A stretch of DNA of 21,841 nucleotides from a virus. This document shows, piece after piece, positions 12,726 to 21,333 of this stretch (the first letter of the stretch is position 1; each line of letters begins with the position of its first letter). Where the stretch lies: the IMG/VR virus record IMGVR_UViG_3300043436_001246, positions 1 through 21,841 of that record; one strand, given 5' to 3'. Position numbers and translations under genes: made by a program. Below the pieces are notes generated by a model. That model made no database searches. It saw only the letters and a program-made list of their open reading frames with translations, and was not told where the DNA came from.

Positions 12726-13399
12726 AAACAATCGACTTCACACCAATAGAATTAAACGATGTAGAAGTGACATCAATAGTTTATGATAAAGGTCAGCACC
12801 ACTACTTTAAAAAAGAGTACGACAATAGCCATATAAAGGGCGTAGAACAACAAAGTTACCTTTTTGAATACAACCCTATGATTGAACTATCAAAGTCTTT
12901 CTCAGACGATAAGTATTACGGAGTGTTTAGTTGGAAGTTTAATTATAAAACAGGGCATACTAAGAACACCTTATACAATGCAATGGTAAAAAAACACTTT
13001 AAAAGATACGACATTATAAATATTTGTCAGCCATTGCCTGAACTATATTTAGAGTTTACAGAAAAAAACCACAAAGGGTTTATGAAGTTGTTTAAAGTAA
13101 TATGCAAGGAGTTAAATTTAGTAGTTGCAGAACCTAAGCACACGATATATGGAAACTTTTTTATTGCTAAAGGTAAAGTTTACAAAGAGTATATTGAAGT
13201 GTTAAAGAACGCTATTCAATTAATGGATAGTAAGTACACAGAGTTGGCGTTTAAGGATGCTAAGTATCAAAGTGGATTAAGTCCTGAGCAACTAAAACAA
13301 AGAACGGGATTGGATTATTATACATTTCACACCTTTATTTTAGAAAGGTTATTAAGTCTTTACATAGACAATAAAAGAATTAGCACATTAGACTTATGA
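12722..13399 (+). CDS. Glycosyltransferase-cassette protein of unknown function
   Basis: 225 residues, joined by ATGA overlaps on both sides and directly ahead of a family-2 glycosyltransferase. Visible: YYGVFSWKFNYKTG (65-78), a central ICQPLPELYLEF segment and an aromatic C-terminus (YYTFHTFILERLLSLYI). The FSWKF...K pattern recalls proteins in bacterial and phage surface-sugar loci; I do not know a reaction for them. A role in sugar transfer or glycan modification is inferred from neighbours. Confidence 0.5.
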   Translation: MKTIDFTPIELNDVEVTSIVYDKGQHHYFKKEYDNSHIKGVEQQSYLFEYNPMIELSKSFSDDKYYGVFSWKFNYKTGHTKNTLYNAMVKKHFKRYDIINICQPLPELYLEFTEKNHKGFMKLFKVICKELNLVVAEPKHTIYGNFFIAKGKVYKEYIEVLKNAIQLMDSKYTELAFKDAKYQSGLSPEQLKQRTGLDYYTFHTFILERLLSLYIDNKRISTLDL

Positions 13400-14088
13400 T
13401 AACCATAATAGTAATAACATTTAATGAAGAGTTTATCTTACCTCACTTCATCAAGTGGTATCGTGATAGGTTTCCTAATTGCAAGATAGTAGTGTATGAC
13501 AATGAGAGTACCGATGGCACTAAGAACATTTGTCTATCAACTGAAAACCTCACTTACATACCTTACTACACAGGCAATAAGTTAAGCGACTCTACCTATT
13601 TAAAAATTAAGAATAACGCTTGGAAACATGCAGATACTGATTGGGTTATTGTATGTGATGCAGATGAGTTTTTGGAAGTTAATCCTGAGGACTTAAATAC
13701 TAATCAAACACTATTCGAGAGTAAGGGATTTAATATGTGCAATGTGGATAATACAGACGATGTATGTAATATTAGACATGGAGTTGAGGCGGTGCAATAT
13801 AATAAAATACTTTGCTTTAATAAGAAGTACATTAAAGATATTAATTATGGTGCAGGTTGCCACCACGCTGAACCGATAGGCGATGTAATATTTTCGAGTG
13901 TAAGACCAAAACTATTGCACATGAAGTTTATTAATGTTGACTTATTAGTTAACAAGTATAAATCTTATGCAAGTAGGTTATCAGAAGAGAATAAGGCAAT
14001 GAGATGGGGTTATCATTACGAACAAGAAGAATGGAGAATTAGAGAGGAATTTAAAAACACTTTAAACATAGCAAAAATAATAAGATGA
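13396..14088 (+). CDS. Family 2 glycosyltransferase (GT-A fold)
   Basis: 230 residues. Starts ITIIVITFNEEFILPHF (2-18), followed by VVYDNESTDGT (32-42), which binds the nucleotide sugar, and the metal-binding D-A-D (88-90) in VCDADEFL. This is the Glyco_tranf_2_4-like pattern; such enzymes move a sugar from a nucleotide-sugar donor. The acceptor is unknown: virion protein, host surface glycan and modified DNA are all possible. ATGA overlaps to both neighbours place it in the cassette of 12722-17586. Confidence 0.8.
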   Translation: MITIIVITFNEEFILPHFIKWYRDRFPNCKIVVYDNESTDGTKNICLSTENLTYIPYYTGNKLSDSTYLKIKNNAWKHADTDWVIVCDADEFLEVNPEDLNTNQTLFESKGFNMCNVDNTDDVCNIRHGVEAVQYNKILCFNKKYIKDINYGAGCHHAEPIGDVIFSSVRPKLLHMKFINVDLLVNKYKSYASRLSEENKAMRWGYHYEQEEWRIREEFKNTLNIAKIIR

Positions 14089-14300
14089 AACAGACCGCAA
14101 CAGAATTTCTATTTAATAAACTTTGGGAAACACCTAAAGATAAATTAACTTGGCACGCTATATTAGAACAAGCAAATAAAATGTTTGAGGAACAACAATT
14201 TGATTTTTATATGAAAGGAAATTTTGAGGGGCGTGGCAATTATGAGGAGTCAACTAAAGAAGATTTTGAATTACAATACAAAAAAGAATATGACAAATAA
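14085..14300 (+). CDS. Hypothetical protein, 71 aa
   Basis: Overlaps the glycosyltransferase by ATGA and the following methyltransferase by 11 bp. Helical: TATEFLFNKL, then LEQANKMFEEQQFDFYMKGNFEG. A small family with this TAxEFL...EQAKxME...DxYxxG pattern is common in Bacteroidota phages, function unknown. Acidic C-terminus. Confidence 0.55.
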   Translation: MKQTATEFLFNKLWETPKDKLTWHAILEQANKMFEEQQFDFYMKGNFEGRGNYEESTKEDFELQYKKEYDK

Positions 14301-14880
14301 AAGATTTAAAAAAATAGAACATTACTATCACTTAATTGAGGGGTGGTTCAACATGGAGGCTCAGTACTTAGAACTACTTGATGCAACACCTGAGGGTGGT
14401 ACATTCGTGGAGTTAGGTTGTTACAAGGGTAAGTCAACTTCATTTATAGGGGTGGAAATACATAAGCAAAAAAGAGATATAAACTTCTTTGCAATAGATA
14501 GTTTTCAAGGTGCAACTAATAGCACAGACTTAAACGAAGTTAAAGCCTATGATGGTATTTCAGAAATAGAAGAGGCATACACTTACAATGTATCACTAAT
14601 AGGCAATAAAATTAAAACGATTGTTTCCTTATCACATGAGGCATCACAATACTTTGATGATAAGTCAGTTGATGTTTTGTTCGTCGATGCTGGCCACAGC
14701 TATGAGGCAGTTAAAGCAGACATTGAGGCATGGCTACCTAAAATGAAACCTAATGGAATAATGGCAGGGCATGACTATACGGCATGGGAGGGAGTTAATA
14801 AAGCAGTCAAAGAAAAGTTTGGCACACCTCACAAAGTTGAGAATGATTGTTGGTTTATTTATTTAAGTAAATTATTTTAA
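14290..14880 (+). CDS. Class I SAM methyltransferase (Methyltransf_24-like)
   Basis: 196 residues from ATG 14290; an earlier in-frame ATG at 14224 would add 22 residues that overlap the upstream gene almost entirely and look unlike the family. Motif I VELGCYKGKS (40-49), then FFAIDSF (67-72), and VDVLFVDAGHSYEAV (127-141) with a GHDY motif (160-163). The last two are typical of the Methyltransf_24 / cephalosporin-hydroxylase-like group often seen in surface-sugar loci. Likely modifies a sugar or small acceptor made in this cassette; the substrate is unknown. Confidence 0.8.
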   Translation: MTNKRFKKIEHYYHLIEGWFNMEAQYLELLDATPEGGTFVELGCYKGKSTSFIGVEIHKQKRDINFFAIDSFQGATNSTDLNEVKAYDGISEIEEAYTYNVSLIGNKIKTIVSLSHEASQYFDDKSVDVLFVDAGHSYEAVKADIEAWLPKMKPNGIMAGHDYTAWEGVNKAVKEKFGTPHKVENDCWFIYLSKLF

Positions 14881-14883
14881 ATT

Positions 14884-15465
14884 ATGAAAGAGATAGCAGA
14901 CACAGGATTTTGGAATGGCGAAACTGCACACCACCACCATGTTCACTCAGAGAAATTAAGTGAATGGATTTGTAACTTTATAGAAGAAAAAGGGCAAATG
15001 AGTGTAGTAGATTATGGTTGTGGACTTGGACAATATTGTAAAGACATAAATGATTACTTTGGTAATTGGGTTTATATTTTAGGAGTTGAGGGAAATAAAC
15101 CTAAACAAGCAGTTTATGACAATATAGTTGAGAAAGATTTAACAACTGAATTAGATGGTTTTAAATTATATCAAAGTGAGTTATCAATTAGTCTTGAAGT
15201 GGGTGAACATATACCTAAAGAGTTTATGTGTATTTACTTAGACAACATAACTAAACACACTAAGGAATACTTAATTACATCATGGGCAGTTCGTGGTCAG
15301 GAGGGTTTCGGTCATGTTAATTGCTTAGACAACCACGAGATAATACCTGAGTTTGAAAAGAGAGGTTTTGAATTAATGGAAAAGGAAACAGAAGATGCAA
15401 GGTCAGTAATAGAAGATAAGGCACATTGGTTTAAAAAAACTATTTTGATATTTAAAATAAAATAG
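14884..15465 (+). CDS. Class I SAM methyltransferase
   Basis: 193 residues. A His-rich N-terminus (HHHHVHS, 16-22) precedes SAM motif I VVDYGCGLGQY (41-51), followed by GVEG (64-67), a short EVGEHIP motif (near 105) and SWAVRGQEGFGHVN (near 137-150). EVGEHIP is the methyltransferase motif seen in small class I enzymes that act near sugar metabolism; the His cluster may bind metal. Second methyltransferase of the cassette, 3 nt after the first. It ends in TAG and its 3' end contains the -33 box of the next promoter. Confidence 0.75.
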   Translation: MKEIADTGFWNGETAHHHHVHSEKLSEWICNFIEEKGQMSVVDYGCGLGQYCKDINDYFGNWVYILGVEGNKPKQAVYDNIVEKDLTTELDGFKLYQSELSISLEVGEHIPKEFMCIYLDNITKHTKEYLITSWAVRGQEGFGHVNCLDNHEIIPEFEKRGFELMEKETEDARSVIEDKAHWFKKTILIFKIK

Positions 15466-18496: not shown

Positions 18497-18907
18497 ATGC
18501 ACCCAACAAGAATATTTAAAACACCCGAAGAATTAGAACAAGCATTTGAGCAATACAAAGAAAGCCTAAAAGAAGAGGCTAAACAATGGCTTAAAGTTCA
18601 ATATGTAGGTAAGGACGGAGAGAGAGTAGCAGACCCTCAGAAAGTGCCTTATACATTAGAGGGATTTAAAAGGTTTTGTAGAAAGAATTACGGAGATGTT
18701 GAACAATACTTTTGGAATAAAGATAATTATTATAATGACTTTGTAGGTATCTGTTCGTACATTAAGAATGAGATAAGAGAAAACCAAATAACAGGAGGGT
18801 TGTTAGGGTTCTACAATCCAAGCATAACTCAAAGGTTAAACAACCTAACAGACAAGGTAGAAACAACTATTGTAGAACAACCTTTATTCCCCGAAACAGA
18901 AGAGTAG
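18497..18907 (+). CDS. terS: Terminase small subunit (gp3-like DNA-packaging protein)
   Basis: 136 residues. Pattern P-x-F-K-TPEELEQAFEQYKE, then a charged basic helix, YTLEGFKRFCRKNYGDV and a C-terminal region (ICSYIKNEI...NQITGGLLGFYNPSITQRLNNL), as in DNA-packaging protein gp3-like small terminases. It recognises the phage genome packaging site and loads the large subunit. Its TAG stop overlaps the GTG start of the large subunit, a coupled pair. Start ATG 18497 is 2 nt after the previous gene. Confidence 0.8.
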   Translation: MHPTRIFKTPEELEQAFEQYKESLKEEAKQWLKVQYVGKDGERVADPQKVPYTLEGFKRFCRKNYGDVEQYFWNKDNYYNDFVGICSYIKNEIRENQITGGLLGFYNPSITQRLNNLTDKVETTIVEQPLFPETEE

Positions 18908-20070
18908 TGTTTAAGCATACCTCAGCAATAAAGAAGTTAAGACGATTAAAGAGCCGTACTAAGATAGTGCAGGGTTCAAGTAGTGCAGGAAAGACATACG
19001 GAATACTTGCAATACTAATTGATAGGGCAACAAAAAAAGATAAGTTAGAGATAAGTGTAGTTAGTGAAACAATCCCACATTTAAGGAGGGGTGCAATGAA
19101 AGACTTTCTTAAACTAATGGTATGGACTAATCGTTTTAATGAGGCTCATTGGAATAAAACATTATTAACTTACACCTTTGCAAATGGTTCTTACATTGAG
19201 TTTTTTAGTGCAGACCAAGAAACAAAGATAAGGGGTGCGAGGCGTGATATACTTTACATTAATGAGTGTAACAATATTCAGTTCGAAACTTACCACCAAT
19301 TAAGCATAAGAACCAATAAAGAGATATGGTTAGATTATAACCCGAGTTCTGAATTTTGGGCACACACCGAATTGAAAGGCGAAGTAGATACTGACTTCAT
19401 TATTATAACTTATCAAGACAATGAGGCATTAGACCAAGCTATTATCAAAGAGATAGAGAAAGCGAAAGTAAAAGGAGATACTTCGGACTATTGGCGTAAT
19501 TGGTATCAAGTGTATGGATTAGGTCAGTTAGGTCAAGTACAAGGTACTATATTCACTAATTGGCATCAGATAGACAATGTTCCTCAGGAGGCAAAGTACA
19601 TCGGGATTGGATTAGACTTTGGTTATAGCAATGACCCTACTGCAATAGTAATGGTTTATAAATGGAATAATGAATTTATCTTAGATGAGATAGCCTATCA
19701 AAAAGAATTAAGTAATAAAGCAATAGCAGACATTTTAAAGCCTTATGGTGGGTTGGTGGTATGTGACTCAGCCGAACCGAAATCAATAGCAGATTTAAGA
19801 AGTTATGGAATAAACGCAACACCATGCGTAAAGGGTAAGGACTCAATAATAAATGGCATACAAAAGATACAAGCATTAGATAGAATACATATTACTAAAA
19901 GGTCAACCAACTTAATCAAAGAGTTTAGGGGTTATGTTTGGAAAACTGATAGGAACGGAGTGGCATTGAATGAGCCTATTGATTTCCTAAATCATGGAGT
20001 TGATGCGATTAGATATATCCTTAGTCATGTCATAGTAAGTCCTAACTATGGTAAGTATCATTTAAGGTAA
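18907..20070 (+). CDS. terL: Terminase large subunit, GTG start
   Basis: 387 residues. ATPase domain: Walker A GSSSAGKT (23-30, K29), Walker B ILYINE (115-120, E120). C-terminal RNase H-like nuclease: acidic residues D237 in GLDFGYSNDPT, D287 in VVCDSAEPKS and D366 in HGVDAIRY. This is the Terminase_3 (PBSX-like) family, the motor that cuts and pumps DNA into the capsid. GTG at 18907 overlaps the TAG of the small subunit. No portal or capsid gene follows; a promoter and tail-assembly genes come next, so head genes lie elsewhere. Confidence 0.92.
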   Translation: MFKHTSAIKKLRRLKSRTKIVQGSSSAGKTYGILAILIDRATKKDKLEISVVSETIPHLRRGAMKDFLKLMVWTNRFNEAHWNKTLLTYTFANGSYIEFFSADQETKIRGARRDILYINECNNIQFETYHQLSIRTNKEIWLDYNPSSEFWAHTELKGEVDTDFIIITYQDNEALDQAIIKEIEKAKVKGDTSDYWRNWYQVYGLGQLGQVQGTIFTNWHQIDNVPQEAKYIGIGLDFGYSNDPTAIVMVYKWNNEFILDEIAYQKELSNKAIADILKPYGGLVVCDSAEPKSIADLRSYGINATPCVKGKDSIINGIQKIQALDRIHITKRSTNLIKEFRGYVWKTDRNGVALNEPIDFLNHGVDAIRYILSHVIVSPNYGKYHLR

Positions 20071-20084
20071 CAATAAACATTAAT

Positions 20085-20092
20085 TAAATTTG
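20085..20092 (+). promoter_or_regulatory. -7 box TAAATTTG
   Basis: TAAATTTG at 20085-20092, 11 nt before ATG 20104, giving a leader of only a few nt. TTTA at 20061-20064 is at a plausible -33 spacing (20 bp). Separates the packaging genes from the tail genes. Confidence 0.6.
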
Positions 20093-20103
20093 TTTTATAA
20101 TAG

Positions 20104-20634
20104 ATGACATTTAAAGACGTAACAATACTACAATTTCAAAAACTACAATCGGCTTTTAAACACTTTGATGGTAACGCTTATGAAGTAGGCATGGCAATAC
20201 TCGACATATTTGAGGGTGTACCTAAAACCTTATCAAGTCAATGGCTCGTTAAAGACTTTGACAAAAGGTTAGCTAAGTATCAATTCTTAATCGATGCTGA
20301 GATGAAAGATAATGAATGGGTTAAAGAGTTTGAATTGAATGGTAAGGTTTATAAAGTTACTCAGCAAGTACACCATTGGAATGTTGAGCAATGGGTTTCA
20401 ATGGGTACTTTAACCCAAGACCCTGATAAGATAATAGAGAATGTCCATTTGATATTAGCAACCTTATGCACAGACGAAAGAGATATAATGGATAGAGCAA
20501 ATGAGTTTCAAAACGATTTAAGTATTGAGGTCGCTTATCCGATAGCGGTTTTTTTTTGCGCGGTTATGTTGAAATTTCACAACGATATGCCAAGCTATTT
20601 TCAGGAGGGGGAGTTAGTACTTGGTTTAGCTTAA
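20104..20634 (+). CDS. Tail assembly chaperone, upstream (G-like) product
   Basis: 176 residues, helical and acidic/aromatic (FQKLQSAFKHFDGNAYEVGMAILDIFEGVPKT). Near its end it carries a run of nine T (20549-20557), inside which the frame can slip back one base into a downstream frame ending at 20774. A short protein with a C-terminally extended form made by -1 frameshifting is the hallmark of tail tube assembly chaperones (lambda G/GT). Position directly before virion genes fits. Without slippage the protein ends 25 codons after the T-run; with it the product is 223 residues. Homology was not searched. Confidence 0.65.
   Translation: MTFKDVTILQFQKLQSAFKHFDGNAYEVGMAILDIFEGVPKTLSSQWLVKDFDKRLAKYQFLIDAEMKDNEWVKEFELNGKVYKVTQQVHHWNVEQWVSMGTLTQDPDKIIENVHLILATLCTDERDIMDRANEFQNDLSIEVAYPIAVFFCAVMLKFHNDMPSYFQEGELVLGLA
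20550..20556 (+). other. -1 frameshift slippery heptamer T TTT TTT
   Basis: The heptamer T TTT TTT falls in frame (codons TTT 20551-20553 and TTT 20554-20556, preceded by T20550), inside nine T's at 20549-20557. After a -1 slip, reading resumes with TTG CGC GGT TAT. The poly-T could also cause slippage of RNA polymerase. A palindrome TGAAATTTCA lies about 14 nt downstream; I see no strong stimulatory stem. Confidence 0.7.
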
Positions 20635-20774
20635 AGTGGGGTTGGTATGATGTAATAATTAAAATGGTAGGCTTTGAAAAAAGGAATGAGATATTTAAGA
20701 CGCCTATCTTTGAGTTCCTTAATCACATGGCATACTTGAAAGATGTTGATATATTTAAGACAGATATAAAATGA
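20556..20774 (+). CDS. Tail assembly chaperone -1 extension (T-like domain)
   Basis: This frame has no convincing start of its own (TTG at 20556 is inside the slippery run) and lies in the -1 frame relative to the upstream gene. It encodes 72 residues rich in Trp, Phe and Lys (WFSLKWGWYDVIIKM; IFEFLNHMAYLKD). The KWGWY...PIFEFL pattern is what I recall from tail chaperone extensions of Bacteroidota phages. Joined to the first 151 residues upstream, it gives a 223-residue fusion. Its stop overlaps the next ATG (20771-20774, ATGA), which places the next gene behind the fusion product. Confidence 0.65.
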   Translation: MRGYVEISQRYAKLFSGGGVSTWFSLKWGWYDVIIKMVGFEKRNEIFKTPIFEFLNHMAYLKDVDIFKTDIK

Positions 20775-21301
20775 GTGCAGAAATAACAGAGAAAATTGCA
20801 GAAGTACTTAAAGAGTGGTCACAGGGTAGAATAGACAACGCTAAAGACTTATTAAAGTCACAGGCTATTCCTTATACAAGTCCACTTAATCAATCCATAC
20901 AGACCACCGAACTAAAGGTACAAGGTTTAAACATCGGAATAGGATTTACTGCTAACGATTATTACATCTACATAGACGAGGGTGTTAAGGGTTTAAAGAA
21001 TAGAGTTCAAAATAGTGGTGTGTTTTCATTTAAGACACCATTTCCAAGTAGGGATATGATTAAGAGTTTAGAAGATTATATCCCAAGATATGGAATAGTA
21101 CCAAGTGGTGGTGGTAAAAAGGTAACAATACCTAAAAAAGAAAAGGCAGCAATAGGTATGGCTTATGCTATTAAACAAAAAGGTATCAAACAGAAACCCT
21201 TTTGGAAACCTACATTTAATGAGGCAGCGTTTAATGACTTAGCCGCAAGACTTGAAGAGGCATTAGGAGAGGACATCAATCTTACCTTAACTATTGAGTA
21301 G
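20771..21301 (+). CDS. Putative neck/tail completion protein (HK97 gp10-like)
   Basis: 176 residues. N-terminal helix, then LNIGIGFTANDYYIYIDEGVKGLKNR (part) with the YIDEGVKG motif, a Lys-rich middle (GGGKKVTIPKKEK), and AYAIKQKGIKQKPFWKPTF near residue 130. HK97 gp10-like neck proteins share a Y-x-x-x-DEG-x-x-G region and a C-terminal FxxP-type element; I recall this only loosely. Follows the chaperone by ATGA overlap and precedes another virion gene, so a head-tail connector or tail-completion role is likely but unproven. Ends TAG. Confidence 0.45.
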   Translation: MSAEITEKIAEVLKEWSQGRIDNAKDLLKSQAIPYTSPLNQSIQTTELKVQGLNIGIGFTANDYYIYIDEGVKGLKNRVQNSGVFSFKTPFPSRDMIKSLEDYIPRYGIVPSGGGKKVTIPKKEKAAIGMAYAIKQKGIKQKPFWKPTFNEAAFNDLAARLEEALGEDINLTLTIE

Positions 21302-21323
21302 CAATAAATAACTATTAACTTTG
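21294..21323 (+). promoter_or_regulatory. Bacteroidota-type promoter (TTG-N19-TAACTTTG)
   Basis: TTG at 21294-21296 (inside the end of the upstream gene), 19 bp, TAACTTTG at 21316-21323. The -7 box equals that at 4043-4050. GTG 21334 follows 10 nt after the box. Confidence 0.75.
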
Positions 21324-21333
21324 TTTTATAGTT

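Follow-up and report, generated by a model that had tools for sequence, protein, structure and literature searches.

A conserved nine-T run predicted to link two reading frames of a tail-module gene in flavobacterial-type tailed phages

A run of nine T's late in an open reading frame raises the questions of whether two frames are decoded as one protein, how the frame would slip and what the products would do. The run lies in the linear IMG/VR virus record IMGVR_UViG_3300043436_001246, all 21,841 bases of which are called the window here, and no other stretch of at least nine T's or A's occurs in these 21.8 kb. The zero-frame codons across it are GCG GTT TTT TTT TGC. A first-pass annotation had described a T TTT TTT heptamer in phase with the upstream frame, a downstream frame in exactly the -1 register without a good start, an ATGA overlap with the next gene, and products of 176 and 223 residues. 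That description of the site and both frames was confirmed and is correct to the base. The heptamer occupies 20550-20556 in zero-frame phase. From the run onward the -1 frame is open (FFLRGYVEIS...), and its earliest possible start, a TTG at 20556, lies inside the run itself. It stops at 20772-20774 within the ATGA. As reading frames, the two products come to 176 aa and to 151 + 72 = 223 aa. The features are as follows.

18907..20070, plus strand: TerL, the preceding gene and synteny anchor (phrog_2, E 1.9e-34).
20085..20099, plus strand: TAnnTTTG-type motif, 5 bases 5' of the start codon; the number of matches is not above chance.
20104..20634, plus strand: zero-frame ORF of 176 aa, consisting of a 151-aa N domain found in both products (w 0.06 5' of the run; AF2 pLDDT 82.8) and a 25-aa zero-frame tail.
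20549..20557, plus strand: T9 slippage run (predicted), with the heptamer at 20550-20556; T9 or T10 in 111 loci plus 79 of 80 more.
20556..20774, plus strand: -1 part of 72 aa (fusion residues 152-223) and stop; w 0.01 past the overlap.
20558..20634, plus strand: dual-frame overlap 3' of the run; pS 0.13 in both frames versus 0.43-0.45 in the flanks.
20634..20648, plus strand: KWGWY motif within the -1 domain; family comparison shows the strongest conservation here.
20771..20774, plus strand: ATGA overlap of the -1 stop and the next start, seen in the sequence.
20771..21301, plus strand: next gene, phrog_29822, to which phrog assigns no function.

Taken as a whole, the locus is probably best explained as a slip-decoded, two-product tail-module gene with a role like that of lambda G/GT. 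A single gene of a flavobacterial-type tailed phage would thus give two proteins with the same 151 N-terminal residues. Straight reading would yield the 176-aa protein, and a slip on T9 into the -1 frame would yield the 223-aa fusion, which adds the conserved KWGWY domain.

The alignment of relatives that the first-pass annotation had called for showed the T run and the -1 frame to be conserved together. Scanning viral contigs with the window fusion returned 14 loci, including 12 complete ones and a partial one (L015) that spans the junction. Exactly T9 in the same phase was present in all 13 close relatives containing the junction, and both stops lay at equivalent places in 12/12 complete ones. 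The run is unchanged in the window clade despite a synonymous divergence of 0.42 per site. It is also retained in clades at 45-55% identity, as in L029 (55%), L032-L034 and L056 (47%), which keep T9 in phase with an altered zero-frame tail. Further scans, which shared a few contigs, gave 13 Inhavirus-like loci and two sets of the 80 best matches, one from at least 574 relatives and the other from at least 594. T9 or T10 followed by a -1 second part was found in 111 loci (35 clusters at 80% identity) and in 79 of the further 80 loci drawn as the best of at least 594; the unscored one, L243, shares its contig with L146, where T9 is present. Among all scored loci (111 and 79), none contradicted the pattern. 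Neither a run of eight nor an uninterrupted gene at this site, named beforehand as evidence against a slip, was seen in any relative of the two-frame family. Relatives with one continuous frame would rank at least equally in tblastn, so the ranking does not explain why these lists lack them. At the site, Phe was encoded by TTT in 70/70 codons of the 35 cluster representatives, compared with 83% upstream, and the codon following FF (Y, C, L, W or S) begins with T without exception. Two scans of GTDB genome contigs returned no relatives, no GenBank phage matching the window fusion was found, and we found no description of the slip site among open-licence papers.

Isolate phages were reached solely with the L029 protein as query. 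Nonlabens phages P12024L/S carry gp40 (phrog_32199) and gp41 (phrog_38404) immediately 3' of TerL, annotated as separate hypothetical proteins, in contrast to the fusion reading of the window. The two are direct homologues of the window gene, with T9 in the same phase, the -1 frame, KWGWY and gene order alike, although the N domain has diverged too far for BLAST. Parts encoded separately without a slippery site would have counted against the fusion; in P12024L/S, the T9 is there and the -1 frame is open already 5' of the run. At L057 3947-4641 (JQ823123 23946-24640), gp40 and gp41 look like one two-frame gene. The window gene fits this P12024-type (Inhavirus-like) arrangement, following TerL, carrying T9 and a -1 KWGWY, and preceding gp10-like and tape-measure protein (TMP) genes.

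More distant phages encode both domains in one frame. A structure search with the N-domain model (pLDDT 82.8) led to Flavobacterium phage 6H, and single-ORF homologues were found in FPSV-F7, laban6-1, Ingeline_1, Leef_1 and a Microcystis phage. The zero-frame part of the family matched the single-frame proteins by hhalign at 95.8% (E 7e-9, 166 columns), and the -1 part matched their C-terminus, right after the FF junction, at 60.7% (E 8e-5). Profile-profile comparison was clearer than hmmsearch of the single-frame proteins, where N and C profiles scored near shuffled controls. These single-ORF proteins of Duneviridae and the Microcystis phage (phrog_25418) have both domains in identical order upstream of TMP, in one continuous frame whose junction holds T6 or less, in contrast to T9 in the window. 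That both domains stand in one frame in Duneviridae and other distant phages argues that the fusion is a real protein. Since these relatives make the long form slip-free, a fixed ratio of short to long form does not hold throughout. In the record of phage 6H, the long tail-module ORF is broken near T6 (L153 10040-10927, minus strand), and in the near-identical FPSV-F7 it is intact (L154 6001-6882).

Selection was computed on 12 distinct window-clade sequences. The zero frame 5' of the run had pS 0.425, pN 0.024 and w 0.06. In the overlap, pS fell to 0.13 and w was about 0.4, each in both frames. Past its own stop, the zero frame is apparently unconstrained, and 3' of that stop the -1 frame had pS 0.447, pN 0.003 and w 0.01. 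An equivalent switch of frame was observed in most other clades; one group gave an alignment too heterogeneous to interpret. Leaving aside the window and Inhavirus groups, most clades have no zero-frame stop until about 47-66 codons beyond the run, a longer open stretch than codon shuffling of the -1 frame predicts (p 0.0005-0.09 each, not independent of one another); in the window clade, the length of the zero-frame tail was not significant by synonymous shuffle (p 0.13). Given the frame-specific constraint and the long zero-frame tails in most clades, both products are likely to be important, the fusion most clearly. The conserved run and -1 frame, the frame-specific selection and the one-frame distant relatives together give strong support, at the level of comparative sequence, for a frame fusion that is real and deeply conserved. 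As a separate observation, the +1 frame ends 2-4 codons 3' of the run in 30/35 clusters (20558-20572 in the window), so loss of one T would yield a quickly ended product.

The annotation of P12024L/S as gp40 and gp41 would suit two independent overlapping genes, the second with its own start codon. We consider this arrangement very improbable and rejected it, because conservation of the -1 frame begins at the run, ahead of any conserved start codon, the window's only start there is the TTG within the run, the constraint is frame-specific and the parts form one chain in single-frame relatives. A wrong homopolymer length in one plain gene is less credible still. T10 or T7 at this position would indeed produce one continuous ORF; however, T9 or T10 with a -1 part recurs at every scored locus, in isolate phages and in contigs of many different samples, both frames are constrained within the overlap, and T9 in 13/13 close relatives makes such an error in the window very unlikely, so a sequencing error was rejected as well. 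With the fusion retained, what remains to be weighed is how the frame slips, for polymerase and ribosomal slips give the identical fusion. The caution of the first-pass annotation, which had offered polymerase slippage as an alternative to ribosomal slippage, was justified. The addition of one U by RNA polymerase on T9 is slightly favoured, because we found neither structure nor an SD-like stimulator and no locus has fewer than nine T's. Equal products and an equal role would follow from -1 ribosomal frameshifting on T TTT TTT, which falls somewhat short of an even chance. Whatever register the run takes, every locus has the heptamer in phase, and P2 E/E', annotated as a translational -1 frameshift, uses GGT TTT TTG. 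Against the ribosome stands the lack of a recognised stimulator among the 35 representatives, where an SD-like element occurred in 2/35 and downstream RNA structure gave mean z of -0.35, 0.22 and -0.10 for 40, 60 and 90 nt (pseudoknots lie outside this test). A ribosome could also use T TTT TTC or seven or eight T's, neither of which is present in the 35 clusters. The frame junction of all scored loci instead holds an A/T run of about nine or more, always T9 or T10, and in L071/L074 the loss of the 5' T (GGT) is offset by the gain of a 3' T (TTG). A review reports that slippage is efficient at nine A/T (PMC5009743), and a study of E. coli RNA polymerase reports that slippage requires at least 7 T and is biased to poly(T) (PMC6260861). 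The lean towards the polymerase carries a caveat, as hydrophobic residues in both frames could likewise retain the flanking T's.

The tail-chaperone label of the first-pass annotation is plausible: two products and a position in the tail module agree with it, but the gene lies several genes upstream of TMP instead of adjoining it. The two-frame gene and TMP share a module in the loci examined, and TMP invariably lies downstream. Across the two-frame clades covered, the gene comes directly after TerL, several genes separate it from TMP, and the module that follows ends in a tape-measure homologue. At the sequence level, the locus presents two products with a common N-terminus joined by a slippery site towards the 3' end of the first ORF. 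The pair would act like lambda gpG/gpGT: the common N domain would bind the tape-measure protein, and the KWGWY extension would bring in tube subunits. In our judgement, the pair probably works like a G/GT tail assembly chaperone; it is not filed as a member, since the gene is not TMP-adjacent, hhalign against the Mu/P2 chaperone profile gave 2%, and the PF10109 and fold matches are weak. PF10109 appeared in 3/46 members (best E 0.0017, below the curated cutoff where shown). The helices of the N model aligned with the HK97 tail assembly chaperone 2OB9 at Z 3.3 over 60 residues and rank 4, which is noise level for helical proteins, and the N-model search returned, as a moderate hit, a viral model carrying the name tail assembly chaperone. 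No match was found in the PDB by sequence, nor any meaningful one by Foldseek of the N domain against the PDB, and the structure search with the 74-aa C-domain AF2 model (pLDDT 62, poor) yielded no informative match. NCBIfam and most Pfam matches were set aside, as they look like chance. A rather doubtful but still serious alternative takes the fusion as real and assigns the protein a different place in the tail or neck, such as that of a tail completion or connector part. Its place after TerL, before a small gp10-like gene and several genes ahead of TMP, would suit such a part, as would the PF10109 and hhalign values and the one long protein of Duneviridae relatives. However, tail chaperones are known for just this pattern, a conserved short:long pair whose slip falls close to the end of the first domain, and the weak fold signals lean to a chaperone.

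Several further observations concern the neighbourhood. The next gene (20771..21301), by its size and place, may be neck or gp10-like. FPSV-S2 QCW20388 (phrog_8914) carries the name 'tail assembly chaperone'. Two exact TAnnTTTGTTTTATA motifs, at 20085-20099 and 21316-21330, sit 5 and 4 bases 5' of the starts of the two-frame gene and of the 409-aa-type gene, respectively, in a number not above chance. We take TAnnTTTGTTTTATA/TAnnTTTG-type motifs to resemble the Bacteroidota -7 promoter element. Four loci (L028 6394-16667, L033, L056 and L057) encode TerS, TerL, tail genes including TMP, a protease-like gene and head genes, with the tail module ahead of the head module. Elsewhere in the window, a partial ORF at 1-681 holds several repeats like YTLSGKDANFKVGxxLSxxKG and resembles a repetitive virion or fibre protein, and at 13396-15465 a glycosyltransferase-like and two methyltransferase-like ORFs, recognised by eye, lie between the replication and packaging genes.

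This tail-module protein is common in environmental Bacteroidota-type phages, where, if annotated at all, it appears as one short ORF or as two hypothetical proteins, and the two-frame reading supplies its correct full-length form. If polymerase slippage is true, a virion-assembly ratio would be fixed at the transcript level. Tentatively, a large family of Bacteroidota-type phages may set the short:long ratio of a tail-assembly protein by polymerase slippage on an obligatory T9/T10 in place of ribosomal frameshifting. The family is suited to deciding between polymerase and ribosome: its run does not vary even across deep divergence, a stimulator was not recognised, and P12024L/S, which carry the run, can be cultivated.

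Among known systems, lambda gpG/gpGT and HK97-type chaperones share with the window family a common N domain, a short and a long product, a late -1 slip and a tail-module position upstream of TMP. Programmed -1 frameshifting is described for these chaperones by Xu, Hendrix and Duda (2004), as cited in PMC5009743. Unlike them, the window family has an obligatory T9/T10 slip site, its gene follows TerL and does not adjoin TMP, and some relatives are single-frame; no significant sequence similarity to lambda or HK97-type proteins was found. P2 E/E+E' also slips by -1 on T's that follow Gly (GGT TTT TTG), comparable to GGT TTT TTT TTG in L071, but has six T's directly before the TMP gene T, whereas the window family has T9/T10 and is not TMP-adjacent. 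Thermus dnaX and Shigella mxiE (PMC5009743) resemble the window in a long A/T homopolymer and products in differing frames; they are not phage tail genes, and transcript heterogeneity was measured there, whereas the window is known from sequence. Programmed switching of frame within a tail-module gene is therefore known in kind, and the obligatory T9/T10 and possible control by the polymerase would be the distinctive parts.
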